A DNA stretch of 55,921 nucleotides from a virus: positions 1 through 55,921 of the IMG/VR virus record IMGVR_UViG_3300050821_011106. The stretch is one strand, 5' to 3'. The notes beneath the pieces are model-generated. The model saw nothing but the letters and a program-made list of their open reading frames with translations, did no database searches and was not told where the DNA came from. The position numbers were made by a program, and so were the translations under genes. Positions 11,134 through 22,266 of the stretch are shown here, one piece after another (the stretch's first letter is position 1; each line of letters opens with the position of its first letter).

Positions 11134-11210
11134 ATCGACATAGCTCAGTTGGTTAGAGCATCAGCGTCATCCGAAGCTGAGGGCCGAGGGTTCGAATCCC
11201 TCCGTCGATG
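11134..11210 (+). tRNA. tRNA, probably Arg(CCG), enlarged anticodon loop
   Basis: A tRNA cloverleaf is clear: acceptor ATCGACA with CGTCGAT (6 of 7 pairs), D arm GCTC/GAGC with AGTTGGTTA loop, and T arm GAGGG-TTCGAAT-CCCTC. The anticodon arm pairs TCAGC with GCTGA but leaves 10 bases (GTCATCCGAA) instead of 7. Reading T33 as the T before CCG gives anticodon CCG (Arg), with three extra bases on the 5' side; CAT is the other reading. No CCA is encoded. The extra bases may be real or a sequencing error. Confidence 0.75.
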
Positions 11211-11401
11211 CCCTGTAACGGCATCCCTAGTGAAGAAGCTCACAGGTCAGAGTTCAAAGTGCAGGTTCTGAATGTTCAAAGGGCAATGGGTAAAGTTGGT
11301 TAAAAATCCATCATCTGGTCTGCTTGCCCGTGAGAGCGGGCAAAAGGGTTGGTCAATTGACCCTTTCTCAGGACCGATGGCTACTGTCTGGAGGCACCTT
11401 T
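11211..11401 (+). other. spacer between the two tRNAs with hairpins
   Basis: A 190-base spacer without a reading frame. It has a hairpin GCCCG/CGGGC (11326-11341) directly followed by AAAGGG/CCCTTT (11343-11366), the latter enclosing GGTCAATTGACC, a perfect 12-bp palindrome. These may be processing or termination signals of the tRNA precursor. A third tRNA is not present. Confidence 0.45.
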
Positions 11402-11484
11402 TGTGCAGGTGGGTGAGTGGCTGAAACCGTTGGACTGTAAATCCAATCCGCAAGGCACGGAGGTTCGAATCCTCCTCTGCACAT
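11402..11484 (+). tRNA. tRNA-Tyr(GTA)
   Basis: Acceptor TGTGCAG pairs fully with CTGCACA. The anticodon arm is TTGGA-CTGTAAA-TCCAA with anticodon GTA, and the T arm is GGAGG-TTCGAAT-CCTCC. The 12-base variable region with a short stem (TCCG/CGGA) fits the class II type usual for bacterial tRNA-Tyr. No CCA is encoded. Phage tRNAs commonly help read codons that are rarer in the host. Confidence 0.9.
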
Positions 11485-17133: not shown

Positions 17134-18546
17134 ATGCCAATAACCGATCATTACCAAAGGTTGCCTTTGGCCACCATCTGGGTCCACCGGGACGATCGCC
17201 AGCGGACGAAAATCGACACGAGCAAACTGGTGGATTCGGTGAGAAAGAATGGGGTTCTGCACCCGGTGATAGTGCAGAGGGTGGTGGAGCAGGATGGCCC
17301 CGGGGTCGGCAGGCATCGCCTGATCGTGGGCGAGCGGAGATATACCTGCTCGGTTGAGCTGGGGCTGCCAGACATCCCAGTCCGCTTTGCCGAGGATCTT
17401 TCCGACATCGAGCGCCAGATCATCGAGCTGGAAGAAAACATCAAACGCCAGGATCTGGACTGGCCAGACATCGTGCGGGGGACAGAGCGCATTCACCGGC
17501 TCTATCAAGCCCTGGATCCTGAGTGGACCCAGGAAGAAACCGCCGAAGCCTGTGCCCTGCAACCTGGGACCCTGTCCATCTACCTGACCGTGGCGCGCCA
17601 TATCACCGAGGAGCGCATTATTGGCGCCGGAACAGTCCGGGAGGCATACAATATCCTCTCCCGGCGGGACGCTCGGGCCGCGGGGGATGCCCTGGCAGAG
17701 ATTCTGGAAACTCCGGACTTGGCCCCCGGCCCCGTCGCCGTCACACAACCAGACCCCCTCAACCCCACCGAGCCCCCGCCCAGGCTACTCCCCGGGAATG
17801 GCAACGGAGCGTTGCCCCCGCGTCTGGTGCTCGACCCGGCGAAAACCATCTTGCAGGAGTCGTTTTTGCATTGGGCGCCTTCGTATTCCGGTAGGAAATT
17901 CAACTTCATTCACTGTGATTTTCCATTTGGGATCAAGGTGTTTGCGGGGCCTCAGGCTGGCGCCGGTCGCCACCAGGCATACGACGACGGTCAGGATGTG
18001 TATTTCCGGTTGTTGGAGTGCTTGTTGACCAACCTGGACAGGTTAATGTCCGTGAGTGGGCATATGATGTTCTGGTATTCCGAGCAATATCGGGATGAAA
18101 CCCGGGAGATGTTTCGGCGGCTGGCCCCCTCGCTTGCAGTCCACAAACACCCCCTGGTCTGGGTCAAGTCCGACAACGCCGGCATTGCAAGCGATGTCCG
18201 CCAAGGCCCCCGGCATGTCTACGAAACCTGCCTGTTCATCACCCGGGGGCAGCGGCAAATTGTCCGGGTGGTGGGGGATGCCTACAGCGCCCCGACGGAC
18301 CATAAATTCCACGTCAGCACCAAGCCTGAGCCCATGCTGAGGCACTTCATGACCATGATCGTGGATGAGCAGACCAGTGTGCTTGATCCGACCTGTGGGA
18401 GTGCCAGCAGCATCCGAGCCGCGGAATCGCTGGGAGCGCGAAGCGCGCTTGCCATGGACATCGACGAGCAGACTGTGGGGATGGCCCGGATGGCCTTGCG
18501 ACAGGCCCGGGCACTCCGCGGAGTTGTTGGAGCGACAGCACAATGA
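17134..18546 (+). CDS. ParB-like domain fused to DNA methyltransferase
   Basis: A 470-residue fusion. Residues 1-190 form a ParB/Srx-type N-terminal part with GERRY (66-70), ENIKRQDL (101-108) and a helix-turn-helix-like part around 130-160. After a Pro-rich linker (200-230) comes an amino-methyltransferase of the N6-Ade/N4-Cyt class in the beta order. Motif IV is DFPFG (262-266) and the SAM-binding motif I is DPTCGSASSI (from 418). Such fusions are common in phages, where they may mark or protect phage DNA. DFPFG replaces the usual DPPF/Y, as seen in some phage variants. Target sequence unknown. Confidence 0.85.
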   Translation: MPITDHYQRLPLATIWVHRDDRQRTKIDTSKLVDSVRKNGVLHPVIVQRVVEQDGPGVGRHRLIVGERRYTCSVELGLPDIPVRFAEDLSDIERQIIELEENIKRQDLDWPDIVRGTERIHRLYQALDPEWTQEETAEACALQPGTLSIYLTVARHITEERIIGAGTVREAYNILSRRDARAAGDALAEILETPDLAPGPVAVTQPDPLNPTEPPPRLLPGNGNGALPPRLVLDPAKTILQESFLHWAPSYSGRKFNFIHCDFPFGIKVFAGPQAGAGRHQAYDDGQDVYFRLLECLLTNLDRLMSVSGHMMFWYSEQYRDETREMFRRLAPSLAVHKHPLVWVKSDNAGIASDVRQGPRHVYETCLFITRGQRQIVRVVGDAYSAPTDHKFHVSTKPEPMLRHFMTMIVDEQTSVLDPTCGSASSIRAAESLGARSALAMDIDEQTVGMARMALRQARALRGVVGATAQ

Positions 18547-18716
18547 GAACATTTATTATAGAGTCAATCGCCCTTGGCATCATCATATCCGCTGCTTATT
18601 TTCTGGATATTCCAGCCACCTGGCGAATGGGAGCATTTGTTTTTATTCTGCTAATAACCCGGATAATTGCAGACGCCCTTGGCATCATCATATCCGCCGA
18701 AATTCGCAATGGCTGA
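18543..18716 (+). CDS. 57-residue membrane microprotein with internal duplication
   Basis: The frame starts at the ATGA overlap with the methyltransferase and encodes MRTFIIESIALGIIISAAYF, then a middle hydrophobic helix (MGAFVFILLITRIIA) and ALGIIISAEIRNG. An exact 24-bp direct repeat (18569-18592 and 18674-18697) encodes ALGIIISA twice. It is AT-rich. The protein is almost all membrane-spanning, with two or three helices. Its stop overlaps the next gene's start region. A holin-like, antiholin or exclusion role is conceivable but unsupported. Confidence 0.6.
   Translation: MRTFIIESIALGIIISAAYFLDIPATWRMGAFVFILLITRIIADALGIIISAEIRNG
18569..18697. repeat. 24-bp exact direct repeat pair
   Basis: CGCCCTTGGCATCATCATATCCGC, written here in two parts as CGCCCTTGGCAT and CATCATATCCGC, occurs at 18569-18592 and again at 18674-18697, in the same reading frame (offset 105 bases = 35 codons). 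Both copies fall inside the membrane microprotein gene. It may be a recent segmental duplication or a site for recombination. Confidence 0.9.
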
Positions 18717-19890
18717 CCACCAGCCTTTGCCACCATTTTCTGCTTGGGCAGGGCCACATAATCCAAAAATGCTTATTATTGGAGAAGCATTTGGGGAACA
18801 AGAGGCCATGTGCCGGCAACCGTTCGTGGGGACCAGCGGGCAGGAACTTTGGCGCATGCTCGGCGAGGCCATACCGCAGGTAGCACCAGAACTATGGCGA
18901 GAGGCCGAGGCCATGTTTCGCTATGGAAATGCCTGGATCGGTCGCCGGGCACCTTGGCTGGAGGCCACCGGCATTGCGTTCACCAATGTGCTCAACCTCC
19001 GGCCACCCGGCAACAGGTTGGATAATCTTTGCGTGGCCAAGAAGGAGGTCCCCAATGACTACCCCATGCCGTTCCTCGCCCGAGGCCAGTACCTGCGACC
19101 TGAGTACCTGCTCGAGCTTAATCGCCTGTTTAATGAAATTAGCACATCCAGACCAAACCTTATTGTCGCTGCGGGGAATACAGCCTGTTGGGCAGTTTTG
19201 CAAGCTACCAACATTGGGTCTATCCGCGGAGCAACTGCACAAAGCCTTATCAAAAATACAGAATTCAATTCTCGTGATCTCGGACCTATAAAGGTCCTGC
19301 CCACTTACCACCCCGCAGGAGTGCTCCGTCAGTGGTCCTGGCGCCCGATCGTGGTGGCGGATTTGATGAAGGCTTGGAGGGAGAGCGCGTTCTTGGAGCT
19401 CCGTCGCCCAGCCCGCTCGGTCCTCGTTGACCCCACACTTGCGGAGATCGAACAATGGGCTGGTCAGACTCTTGCAAACCCCCCAGCCCTGCTGGCCTTC
19501 GACATCGAGACCGGGCAACAGCAGATCAAGTGCATTGGGTTCGCCCGCAGTCGCACAGAAGCTGCCGTGGTGCCATTTGTGGATTTGACCCAACGCAATG
19601 GCAGCTACTGGTCCACCCCGGCGGAGGAGTTGAGTGCTTGGTCTGTGGTTGGCAGGTTGCTTGGGAGTGGAATTACGAAGGTGGCCCAGAACGGTCTGTA
19701 TGACCTCCAATACCTGTTCAAGATGGGCCTGGTGGTGAGGAATTGCCTGGAGGACACCATGCTGTTACACCACAGCCTGTTCCCGGAAATGCGTAAGGGC
19801 CTGGGGTTCCTGGGCTCCATCTACACCGACGAAGCCAGCTGGAAGCTGATGCGCCGGCCTCGTGCTGACACTGAGAAAAGGGACGAGTGA
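18709..19890 (+). CDS. uracil-DNA glycosylase fused to partial 3'-5' exonuclease
   Basis: A 393-residue protein. Residues 20-220 are a UDG-superfamily domain: GEAFGEQE (25-32), PFVGTSG (38-44) and the late motif PTYHPAGVL (198-206). Residues 258-393 carry a DnaQ-type proofreading fold: Exo I FDIETG (D265, E267), Exo II NGLYD (N328, D332) and the EDT segment (D349). The protein ends at RADTEKRDE, before the Exo III Y-x3-D motif. That motif is found as YCGLD at the start of the polymerase (20698). Together they would make one proofreading polymerase plus a uracil scanner. Confidence 0.85.
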   Translation: MADHQPLPPFSAWAGPHNPKMLIIGEAFGEQEAMCRQPFVGTSGQELWRMLGEAIPQVAPELWREAEAMFRYGNAWIGRRAPWLEATGIAFTNVLNLRPPGNRLDNLCVAKKEVPNDYPMPFLARGQYLRPEYLLELNRLFNEISTSRPNLIVAAGNTACWAVLQATNIGSIRGATAQSLIKNTEFNSRDLGPIKVLPTYHPAGVLRQWSWRPIVVADLMKAWRESAFLELRRPARSVLVDPTLAEIEQWAGQTLANPPALLAFDIETGQQQIKCIGFARSRTEAAVVPFVDLTQRNGSYWSTPAEELSAWSVVGRLLGSGITKVAQNGLYDLQYLFKMGLVVRNCLEDTMLLHHSLFPEMRKGLGFLGSIYTDEASWKLMRRPRADTEKRDE

Positions 19891-19891
19891 G

Positions 19892-20383
19892 ATGATCCCA
19901 GACAACGAGGATAACACCAAACTTCCACCAACACACAGGCTTCTTGCTCAAACAGTTCGAGCAATTGATCATTTGCCTGACGGATGTATGGTTGAGTTTG
20001 AGGATGGTAGTTTCAGCAGTCATCCGATTCCAGTTAATCAAATGGTGTCTTTATTTGCCATTCAGCAAGATCAATTCCCTGCTGGTCGATATCGCGCCCT
20101 GGCCACAACCTTGCTCGGGGAGGCCCTGGAACGCTGGGCTCAGCTGATGCTCCACCCAGAAGGCCCAACGGGGCAGCTGCAATTGAAACTGGCCCAACTA
20201 CAGGCCGCACTCCGGATGGAGCCCTTCCAGGTTCTAACAGAGTGGGAGCGTCGGTTGCAGGAGGACGCCAAGCGCCTGCTCGACCTGGCGGAGAAAGTGG
20301 TGAATGATCAAAAGCATGGGCTGGTTACCGACTCGACTGCCGAGTTGGCCAAGCTGGTGGCGCAGCATCGGGGAGGGGGCTGA
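19892..20383 (+). CDS. hypothetical protein between exonuclease and polymerase
   Basis: A 163-residue protein starting 1 base after the glycosylase/exonuclease stop. The first 70 residues are AT-rich in coding (TVRAIDHLPDGCMVEFEDGS) and beta-like; the remainder is helical (LKLAQLQAALRMEPFQVLTEWERRLQ). No endonuclease motif (HNH, LAGLIDADG, GIY-YIG) is visible, so it is not an obvious homing gene. It separates the two halves of the exonuclease. Confidence 0.7.
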   Translation: MIPDNEDNTKLPPTHRLLAQTVRAIDHLPDGCMVEFEDGSFSSHPIPVNQMVSLFAIQQDQFPAGRYRALATTLLGEALERWAQLMLHPEGPTGQLQLKLAQLQAALRMEPFQVLTEWERRLQEDAKRLLDLAEKVVNDQKHGLVTDSTAELAKLVAQHRGGG

Positions 20384-20384
20384 G

Positions 20385-20684
20385 ATGCCCCGGGCGCCAG
20401 GGCTTAGCGATGATGACATCTTGGAGGTGGTCAAATGTAAGACCGCCGGGTGGGAGCATAAGAAAGTAGCCGACTGGCTAGGCTGCACGGTTAACCAAGT
20501 GCAATATTACTGGTCCAAACATCGAGAGGACATGGGGTATCGCCCGGAGTTCTTGCACGAAATGCATCGGATGGTGAGTGAGCAACTGGCCCGGGAGGTT
20601 GCGGCAGCAGTGCTGGAGCGGAAGGAGCACGAGGCCGGGCTGGCCCACATCCCGCCGTATAAGCCCGGGCCACTGGTCTGGTAA
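20385..20684 (+). CDS. small helix-turn-helix-like protein
   Basis: A 99-residue protein from ATG 20385, 1 base after the previous stop. Residues 8-45 (LSDDDILEVVKCKTAGWEHK, then KVADWLGCTVNQVQYYW) fit a Trp-repressor/transposase-type HTH (helix, 'kvAdwLGct..qVq' recognition helix). The rest is helical and ends with a polymerase-proximal GPLVW. It may bind phage DNA near replication functions. It is the second gene lying between the split exonuclease halves. Confidence 0.65.
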   Translation: MPRAPGLSDDDILEVVKCKTAGWEHKKVADWLGCTVNQVQYYWSKHREDMGYRPEFLHEMHRMVSEQLAREVAAAVLERKEHEAGLAHIPPYKPGPLVW

Positions 20685-20697
20685 TGGCACAGCCCCA

Positions 20698-22266
20698 ATG
20701 CCCATAATTCAAACCTCCGAGATCACCCAATCCACTCGCCTCGCCCCCAACACCGGGTTGCAGGTGTATTGTGGCCTGGATTGTGGAGTCACAATCGAGG
20801 TCCGGGAGGAGCTCGGTCGCCTGTTCAACGAGACTCCGGAGATTTACAATTTCGAGCGAGCGCTCCAGGGTCCATACCTGGAGATCATGCTCCGGGGTTT
20901 CCGGGTGGATCAAATCGCCCGGTCCCGCGCAGCGAGCGAGCTCCGGAGCAGGATCGAAAGGCTCGAACGCACGCTCAACCAAATGGCCACCGCGGTCTGG
21001 CACCAACCGCTCAACCCCCGCTCGCCAAAGCAGCTCACGCAGTTCTTCTACCGAGCCATGGGCTTGCCGGAGGTCTGGTTGTCGCAGAAAGGCGAGCGGA
21101 AGCTTTCGACCAACCGAGAGGCTTTGGAAAAGCTGGAGGTCTACCTGCATGCCCGACCTATCATCGCCTGCATTCTCAGCATCCGTGACCTCGCCAAACA
21201 GCTCCAAGTTTTCGACACTGACATTGACGCTGACGGAAGATTCCGAACCAGCTATAACATTGCTGGAACTGAAACTGGACGACCAAGCAGTAGCGAAAAT
21301 GCGTTTGGGACCGGAGGGAATGCTCAAAATATCGCTCCTGGACTCCGCTACGTCTTCGTGGCTGATCCTGGGTGGAAGCTCGTTGTCATAGACCTGGAAC
21401 AGGTCGAAGCCCGGGATGTGGGATTTTTCTGTGGCTGCCTGTTCAACAACTGGGAGTTCCTGGACGCTTGTGAAAGTGGAGATCTACATACAAACAACGC
21501 CAGAAGAATTTGGCCTGAGCTCAATTGGACTGGAGATAATAAGAAAGACCGGGCAATTGCTGACAGAAACTTCTATCGAGAATTCTCATACCGCGACATG
21601 GCTAAAAGAGGCTCGCATCTCAGTAATTACTACGGCACCGCCTGGACCGCATCCCGGCACCTGAAAGTCCCAATCGCCATGATGGAGGAGTTCCAGGCCC
21701 GGTATATCCGCGGGCGTTTGGCCCGGCCCGGGCAGGCAGCCATCGAGCCCGCGTATCCGGCTATTGCGGAATACTGGCAATGGGTGGCCACCGAGTTGCA
21801 AACCACCCACCAACTGACCACCCCATTTGGCCGCCGGAGGCATTTCTTCGGCCGCCCCGGAGATGACACAACGCTGCGCGAGGCCATCGCGTTCCTGCCC
21901 CAATCCACCACCGCCGACCGCATGAACCTGGGCCTGTGGCGAGTCTGGAAACACATGCCCCACGCGCAGCTCCTGGCCCAAACCTATGACTCGGTCACGT
22001 TCCAGGTCCGGGAAGGCCCGGGGTTCGATGATGCGGTGGCAGAAGCCCTGCAACTTATCGCCGACATCCCGCTCTATGGGCCAAATGGCCGGAGGTATGC
22101 CGTTCCCGGAGAGGCCAAGGTTGGCTACAACTGGGGGAACATGCACGACCCGCGGAAGGCGATTGGCCCGGGGAATAGGTTTAACCCAGACGGCCTGGTT
22201 AAATGGTCCCCTGGGGCGGATCGCCGCGCCCGGGCCAACGGCCTGCAACGAATAATGGAGGGTTAA
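20698..22266 (+). CDS. family A DNA polymerase with truncated exonuclease start
   Basis: A 522-residue polymerase from ATG 20698. It opens with the Exo III motif VYCGLDCGVTIE (YCGLD at 24-28), lacking Exo I and II, which are in the upstream glycosylase fusion. Polymerase motifs are: motif A VIDLEQVEARDV, motif B RDMAKRGSHLSNYYGTAW and motif C QTYDSVTF, where the usual His-Asp-Glu is Tyr-Asp-Ser. The catalytic Asp residues of A and C are kept. It is the replicative polymerase of the phage. No 5'-3' nuclease is fused. Confidence 0.92.
   Translation: MPIIQTSEITQSTRLAPNTGLQVYCGLDCGVTIEVREELGRLFNETPEIYNFERALQGPYLEIMLRGFRVDQIARSRAASELRSRIERLERTLNQMATAVWHQPLNPRSPKQLTQFFYRAMGLPEVWLSQKGERKLSTNREALEKLEVYLHARPIIACILSIRDLAKQLQVFDTDIDADGRFRTSYNIAGTETGRPSSSENAFGTGGNAQNIAPGLRYVFVADPGWKLVVIDLEQVEARDVGFFCGCLFNNWEFLDACESGDLHTNNARRIWPELNWTGDNKKDRAIADRNFYREFSYRDMAKRGSHLSNYYGTAWTASRHLKVPIAMMEEFQARYIRGRLARPGQAAIEPAYPAIAEYWQWVATELQTTHQLTTPFGRRRHFFGRPGDDTTLREAIAFLPQSTTADRMNLGLWRVWKHMPHAQLLAQTYDSVTFQVREGPGFDDAVAEALQLIADIPLYGPNGRRYAVPGEAKVGYNWGNMHDPRKAIGPGNRFNPDGLVKWSPGADRRARANGLQRIMEG

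Follow-up and report, generated by a model that had tools for sequence, protein, structure and literature searches.

We analyzed a viral record of 55,921 nucleotides (IMG/VR record IMGVR_UViG_3300050821_011106, positions 1 to 55,921; the full stretch is called the window below) in which the proofreading exonuclease of a family A DNA polymerase is divided between two genes on the plus strand. The upstream gene, P0001 (18709 to 19890, 393 amino acids), encodes a uracil-DNA glycosylase (UDG)-like domain followed by the Exo I and Exo II part of a PolA-type 3'-5' exonuclease, and we refer to its product as the N-half. The downstream gene, P0004 (20698 to 22266, 522 amino acids), encodes the Exo III segment and a family A polymerase domain, and its product is the C-half. 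Both have homologues in Caulobacter phage Kuura and in more than 100 viral loci. We consider it very likely that the two genes encode two subunits of one replicative family A polymerase, whose exonuclease site is completed only in the heterodimer. An initial annotation of this DNA had the coordinates of both genes and the division of Exo I and Exo II from Exo III exactly right, and the two unrelated genes that it placed between the halves (19892 to 20383 and 20385 to 20684) are present.

One polymerase family on two genes

Profile searches assigned the two products to complementary parts of one enzyme. In Pfam, P0001 matched a UDG domain and a truncated DNA_pol_A_exo1 domain (PF01612), the latter match breaking off at profile position 123 of 173 with a score under the cutoff, while P0004 matched DNA_pol_A (PF00476; E = 2.7e-26, 92.9 bits, cutoff 34.3). 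Eleven of 14 relatives searched likewise gave one PF01612 match each, ending at position 122 to 131 of 173, several of them under the cutoff. The PHROG "DNA polymerase" profile phrog_17 is covered from 555 to 801 by P0001 and from 805 to 1236 by P0004. This coverage is contiguous over the two proteins, and they are therefore one polymerase in two pieces, with nothing lost. The locus has the makeup of a split polymerase: one family on two adjacent, co-directional open reading frames (ORFs), both of which are needed to supply the motifs of the family.

The split is a fixed trait of a large clade, neither an artefact nor a local event. Kuura, found by tblastn against phages, has the same layout: Kuura_029 (UDG-exonuclease), two small genes, and Kuura_026, annotated "DNA polymerase", its halves being 38% and 34.5% identical to those of the window (BLAST). 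Kuura is the sole isolate carrying the N-half, which is labeled "hypothetical protein" there and has thus been overlooked. Because this cultured, plaque-forming podovirus reaches stocks of about 10^10 plaque-forming units per ml (PMC9959647), the split arrangement is compatible with a functional virus. When IMG/VR was scanned with an alignment of each half, 378 and at least 557 relatives were obtained, of which the best 80 of each were kept. Both halves occur as separate ORFs at 159 loci (102 representatives at <90% identity; a few loci share a contig), in the same order on one strand, all cut at the homologous place. Loci with only one half had their match near a contig end, and the pair also appears in two bacterial metagenome bins (Acidobacteria and Terriglobia). 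A single metagenome-derived record might raise the suspicion of an error in sequencing or assembly, or of a gene broken only recently; this explanation has practically no probability left and is already refuted, as the same arrangement recurs in Kuura, at the BLAST identities given above, and in about 160 loci of many samples, with both frames fully open and conserved. The 159 loci and Kuura also do away with the view that the split is peculiar to one phage.

Across these loci, the exonuclease residues do not vary. Exo I (FDIETG, 19498 to 19515) has its D265 and E267 in 157 of 157 N-halves, and Exo II (NGLYD, 19690 to 19704) its N328 and D332 in 158 of 158; Exo III (YCGLD, 20767 to 20781) has Y24 and D28 in all 159 C-halves, so none of these C-terminal parts is without Exo III. 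Residue counts here and below refer to scorable loci, the few remaining of the 159 being alignment gaps. Pairwise identity averages 48% among the N-halves and 49% among the C-halves, with minima of 30% and 35%. Since the catalytic residues stay fixed on two chains at mean identities of 48 to 49%, the exonuclease site is under selection across both genes. Judging from this sequence pattern, in which the catalytic residues never change in 159 viral sequences, the two pieces almost certainly assemble and join to work.

The same counts bear on whether the exonuclease has been lost, leaving the N-half as a free uracil-sensing or structural accessory and the C-half as an exonuclease-deficient polymerase. 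Such a loss would fit the PF01612 scores under the cutoff in the window and in several relatives, as well as the degenerate UDG motif of Kuura, which indicates that parts of the N-half can decay. However, the low Pfam score reflects the missing C-terminal 45 or so profile positions, which sit on the other gene; the five catalytic residues on the two genes are invariant in all scorable loci; and the Exo III tyrosine and aspartate are not known to serve a polymerase in any other way. We consider this explanation improbable.

The C-half has the features of a family A (Pol I-like) polymerase by sequence, combining the DNA_pol_A domain with the expected motif residues. The motif A aspartate (D232, 21391 to 21393) is kept in 153 of 153 C-halves, the motif B residues R299 and K303 in 152 of 152 and 151 of 151, and the motif C aspartate (D431, 21988 to 21990) in 142 of 143. 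Motif C of the window (21985 to 21993) reads Y-D-S, where most relatives have H-D-S/A; Tyr occurs in 15 and Phe in 8 of the 143.

Joined, the halves correspond to the Klenow fragment of Escherichia coli. A profile of the joined halves (positions 204 to 817) matches Klenow positions 14 to 603 of 605 without a break (E = 3.6e-38). Profiles of the separate halves fall on the Klenow chain at positions 17 to 123 (N-half) and from 173 onward (C-half), the latter position lying just before Y497 in Klenow numbering.

For structure prediction we used a homologous pair, L172 (L numbers are our locus handles), whose halves lie in one frame 180 nucleotides apart; reading through four TGA codons gives a natural linker. 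The linked AlphaFold model (903 residues, 69 alignment rows) had a mean predicted local distance difference test score (pLDDT) of 89.3 and a predicted template modeling score (pTM) of 0.86. Its pLDDT fell below 50 only at residues 330 to 394, in the N-half tail and read-through linker, and at the last three residues. Foldseek aligned the model to the full extent of the Pol I large fragments 1kfs (template modeling [TM] score 0.76 by target) and 8oo6 (TM score 0.77) and also matched it to viral PolA proteins. The linked homologous pair is thus predicted to fold as one Klenow-like enzyme, with a single exonuclease/polymerase fold. P0001 alone, in a single-sequence AlphaFold prediction, reached a pLDDT of 34.5, too low to be informative.

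No single polypeptide of the pair holds the set that defines a DEDDy exonuclease, namely, the D-x-E of Exo I, the D of Exo II, and the Y-x3-D of Exo III. The DEDDy residues and the whole fold are present over the two chains together, according to the Klenow profile match, the homologous-pair model, and the residue counts. We found no complete exonuclease on another gene and no other DnaQ/RNase_T or DNA_pol_A_exo1 domain in the whole 55.9-kb record. The invariant residues, the joint model, and this absence support the proposal of the initial annotation that the halves must associate to proofread.

In the arrangement that we favor, the N-half would bring the UDG-like domain and the exonuclease core with the Exo I and Exo II carboxylates, and the C-half would bring the final helix of the exonuclease, which bears the Exo III tyrosine and aspartate, followed by thumb, palm, and fingers. 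The chain break would lie in a surface loop directly before the Exo III helix. The metal-binding exonuclease site would consist of D, E, and D from the N-half and Y and D from the C-half, complete only in the heterodimer, which would act like a Klenow fragment with a glycosylase domain ahead of it. The split may also have been preserved for its usefulness: reversible binding of the glycosylase/exonuclease subunit would allow the polymerase to run with or without proofreading and uracil surveillance, and translational coupling, or the genes that separate the halves, would determine the ratio. We regard this as unlikely.

A single origin from a fused enzyme

Relatives with an unsplit gene, for which the initial annotation had suggested looking, exist and survive as a sister group. 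In 81 loci, the UDG, exonuclease, and polymerase are fused, or fused with a break further on. In a FastTree tree of 175 representatives, a single branch (support, 0.95) sets all 104 split ones apart, and no fused member lies among them; therefore, the split arose once. The fused enzymes of Microcystis phage Mel-JY34 and L186 to L265 form the sister group of the split enzyme.

Some split loci retain overlapping halves. The gap is -4 nucleotides in L157, L011, and L012, with an ATGA or GTGA overlap, and -1 in L099, L173, and L015, with TAATG. L099 is the deepest branch of the split clade in the FastTree tree, where L157 stands at the base of one major subclade; an unfinished IQ-TREE tree, rooted on L008 and without support values, agrees and also places L099 deepest. 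Since halves overlap in the deepest branch and the inserted genes differ by lineage, the split likely preceded the insertions, so that a fused gene was followed by an overlapping split and then by repeated gain of unrelated genes. We envisage a single split in a fused UDG-exonuclease-polymerase ancestor, probably at an overlapping stop and start, with unrelated genes gathering in between later. The suggestion of a past insertion inside a polymerase gene probably has the order wrong, given that the halves overlap by 1 to 4 bases in several members, the deepest branch among them, with no gene inserted, and that the inserted genes vary. We rejected a single insertion as the likely cause of the split; the ORFs of 111 distinct gaps fall into 152 clusters, the largest of which occurs in 25 loci.

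UDG-exonuclease-polymerase fusions have been described in PaBG and in the jumbo phages of the Lupandier group (PMC7412058). As these fused enzymes exist unsplit, the glycosylase link is older than the split. The tie of a UDG domain to the Exo I/II half is supported, and that domain travels with that half; a coupling of uracil recognition and proofreading as a product of the split is not borne out, the link being ancestral and present in unsplit enzymes (PMC7412058; L002, L003, and L186 onward).

Several considerations weigh against our reading of the two genes and their history. The association of the halves and their 3'-5' exonuclease activity are deduced from sequence and a predicted fold. 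In the L172 model the read-through linker joins the chains, and the underlying alignment consists mostly of unpaired rows; AlphaFold may thus have done no more than reproduce the Klenow fold. The scores of the model pertain to a single linked chain and do not measure binding between chains. The modeled pair is that of L172, about 49% identical to the N-half of the window, and not the pair of the window itself. Locus counts are a sample from the best 80 matches per scan and are biased towards the queries. The split-first order depends on deep branches with a support of 0.70, and overlap of the halves could also come from later deletion.

Breaks at other points occur among the fused relatives. 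In the locus L202 (3150 to 3330), the loop between Exo II and Exo III contains a single in-frame stop, with an ATG a few nucleotides on (MPIKHETEEDRWVYNAED). We rejected it as a member of the split clade because the tree places it in the fused clade; it may have been split independently, and perhaps recently, at this same position, or the stop may be a sequencing error. Within the fused sister group, a break recurs right after "NLQNIPKGD", before motif A, in 12 loci (L228, L233, L234, L236, L239, L240, L242, L243, L246, L247, L249, and L253), their ORFs overlapping or lying at most 0.9 kb apart. Vibrio phage VS-ABTNL-3 (L005) shares this break point. In L232 and L252 the UDG is apart from the exonuclease-polymerase, and in L256 and L004 (ctLwi270) the break falls just after Exo III, leaving the exonuclease complete.

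The junction, the glycosylase domain, and the surrounding genes

The split added residues at the break. Between a conserved WK and the Exo III tyrosine lies a median of 17 residues (13 to 23) in fused relatives; the split clade has a median of 14 after WK plus 22 before the tyrosine, about 36 in all. The approximately 19 residues gained form an N-half tail, which in most loci ends in K[RK][DE][DE], and a C-half start, M-x-[IV]-[IV]-x-T. P0001 ends in RADTEKRDE, with the conserved KRDE and stop at 19876 to 19890; K or R stands at -4 in 96 of 102 representatives, and at least two of the last three residues are acidic in 86 of 102. P0004 begins MPIIQTSEITQ, the element MPIIQT (20698 to 20715) being a conserved start that is absent from fused relatives. 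The pattern M-x(0-4)-[IV]-x-[TSA] is found in 91 of 102 representatives, and the start is modeled as a beta strand in the linked homologue (residues 400 to 403). The residues gained at both ends possibly serve as an interface clasp.

These ends argue against rejoining of the halves into a single working chain at the RNA or protein level, whether through an intron, a split intein, a frameshift, or read-through. Phage polymerase genes can contain introns and inteins (PMC10580990, PMC6892783), and the halves share one frame in several loci. However, nothing follows KRDE in the N-half, and in the C-half Exo III lies within about 22 residues of the start; this leaves no room for intein parts, and the C-half has a conserved start of its own. 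Moreover, the gaps, which range from -4 to 2,793 nucleotides over the 159 loci, are occupied by differing protein genes (median ORF coverage, 91%). No Rfam intron was found in the window or in 12 relatives, and we rejected an intron- or intein-interrupted gene for want of such a match and of space for intein blocks at the ends. Rejoining is very improbable.

The gap of the window measures 807 nucleotides and holds two genes on the plus strand. The first (19892 to 20383, 163 amino acids) has no family, and its only homologue lies in the gap of L145. The second (20385 to 20684, 99 amino acids) has weak helix-turn-helix similarity (HTH_23, E = 0.0046; phrog_664, E = 0.0013) and is an orphan among gap genes. 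Homology of either to the intervening genes of Kuura was rejected, the sequences being unrelated. Gap genes elsewhere (e.g., L176, L106, L026, and L128) encode HNH endonucleases, DNA ligase, DUF7768, DUF1937, and deoxyribosyltransferase-like and YfbR-like proteins.

The UDG domain of the N-half (18751 to 19341; PF03167, 62 bits, E = 1.6e-16) carries the motifs GEAFGEQE and HPAGVLR. Its motif residues are largely kept (E26 in 147 of 154, G29 in 151 of 154, E32 in 149 of 154, and H201 in 150 of 158 N-halves), although the proline of the first motif, GExPGxxE, is mostly replaced by tryptophan in the split clade. The N-half has the UDG fold and the GExPGxxE and HPA motifs in common with family 4 uracil-DNA glycosylases such as Thermotoga maritima TM0511 (1vk2) and the Thermus thermophilus enzyme (1ui0). 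It differs from them in being fused to a partial exonuclease and in lacking the CxxC motif: this iron-sulfur ligand motif of the family 4 [4Fe-4S] enzymes, sought before the UDG motif, was found in 0 of 102 split representatives. With the UDG motifs largely kept and CxxC gone in 102 of 102, a uracil-binding or glycosylase role is plausible from the sequence. In Kuura_029 (L001, 6001 to 7107), the active-site motif is degenerate (GDCPTDGD versus GEAxGExE) and the exonuclease residues are intact.

The record belongs to a phage whose portal and coat are of the P22 type and whose large terminase subunit matches Terminase_3. The gene next upstream of the N-half gene (17134 to 18546) joins an N-terminal ParB domain to an N6/N4 DNA methylase, and ParB or methylase genes of similar kind lie beside the polymerase in several relatives. 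The window also has two transfer RNA genes (11134 to 11212 and 11402 to 11484); ARAGORN assigned the first a four-base anticodon (atcc), and it is possibly a frameshift-suppressor tRNA.

Relation to known polymerases

Split phage polymerases and UDG-exonuclease-polymerase fusions are already known; by sequence, the new element would be the composite exonuclease site. In the literature on split phage polymerases we found only palm splits, PolB inteins, and jumbo-phage PolIII. No paper that we found describes a conserved split that separates Exo II from Exo III, although an earlier description is possible, as mainly open-access literature was covered. A Pol I-type proofreading exonuclease is regarded as a single domain on one chain, and here a whole phage clade appears to build the site from two proteins and to have kept it for long, the halves having diverged to 30 to 35% identity. 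Overlapping, adjacent, and far-separated versions persist alongside a fused sister enzyme, so that several questions lend themselves to simple tests. Does proofreading depend on association of the subunits, why is there no re-fused gene among the sampled clade, and does the polymerase junction attract incoming genes? This family A polymerase, split in nature and tuned by evolution, is also potentially useful as an assembly-dependent proofreading enzyme.

Free-standing exonucleases provide one comparison. Thermus phage G20c encodes a PolA-type 3'-5' exonuclease, ExnV1, as a protein separate from PolI (PMC9629493). By this precedent, the N-half might function independently of the polymerase, as a free exonuclease/glycosylase whose active site is completed by dimerization or by a partner from the host or elsewhere. 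However, ExnV1 carries every catalytic residue, Exo III included, in one chain, and its authors regard it as a truncated gene (PMC9629493). Exo III is missing from the N-half, and it is precisely this segment that the polymerase half provides, without variation in 159 of 159; we give a free N-half no more credence than rejoining of the halves. Two subunits of one polymerase remain the reading that we prefer.

The family A polymerases of the OM43 phages MEP401 and MEP402, which are split inside the polymerase domain (PMC10580990), and that of Vibrio phage VS-ABTNL-3 likewise occupy two ORFs with a small gene between. They differ in that the break lies within the polymerase domain and the exonuclease domain is whole. 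The E. coli Klenow fragment, to all of which the joined halves align, has the exonuclease and polymerase fold and the catalytic residues in common with the pair, but it is a single chain without a glycosylase domain. The fused phage enzymes (PaBG and the Lupandier group; Mel-JY34, XAI96477.1; L186 to L265) have the same three domains in the same order; unlike the split clade, they hold Exo I, II, and III in one polypeptide, with 13 to 23 residues from WK to the Exo III tyrosine in place of about 36.

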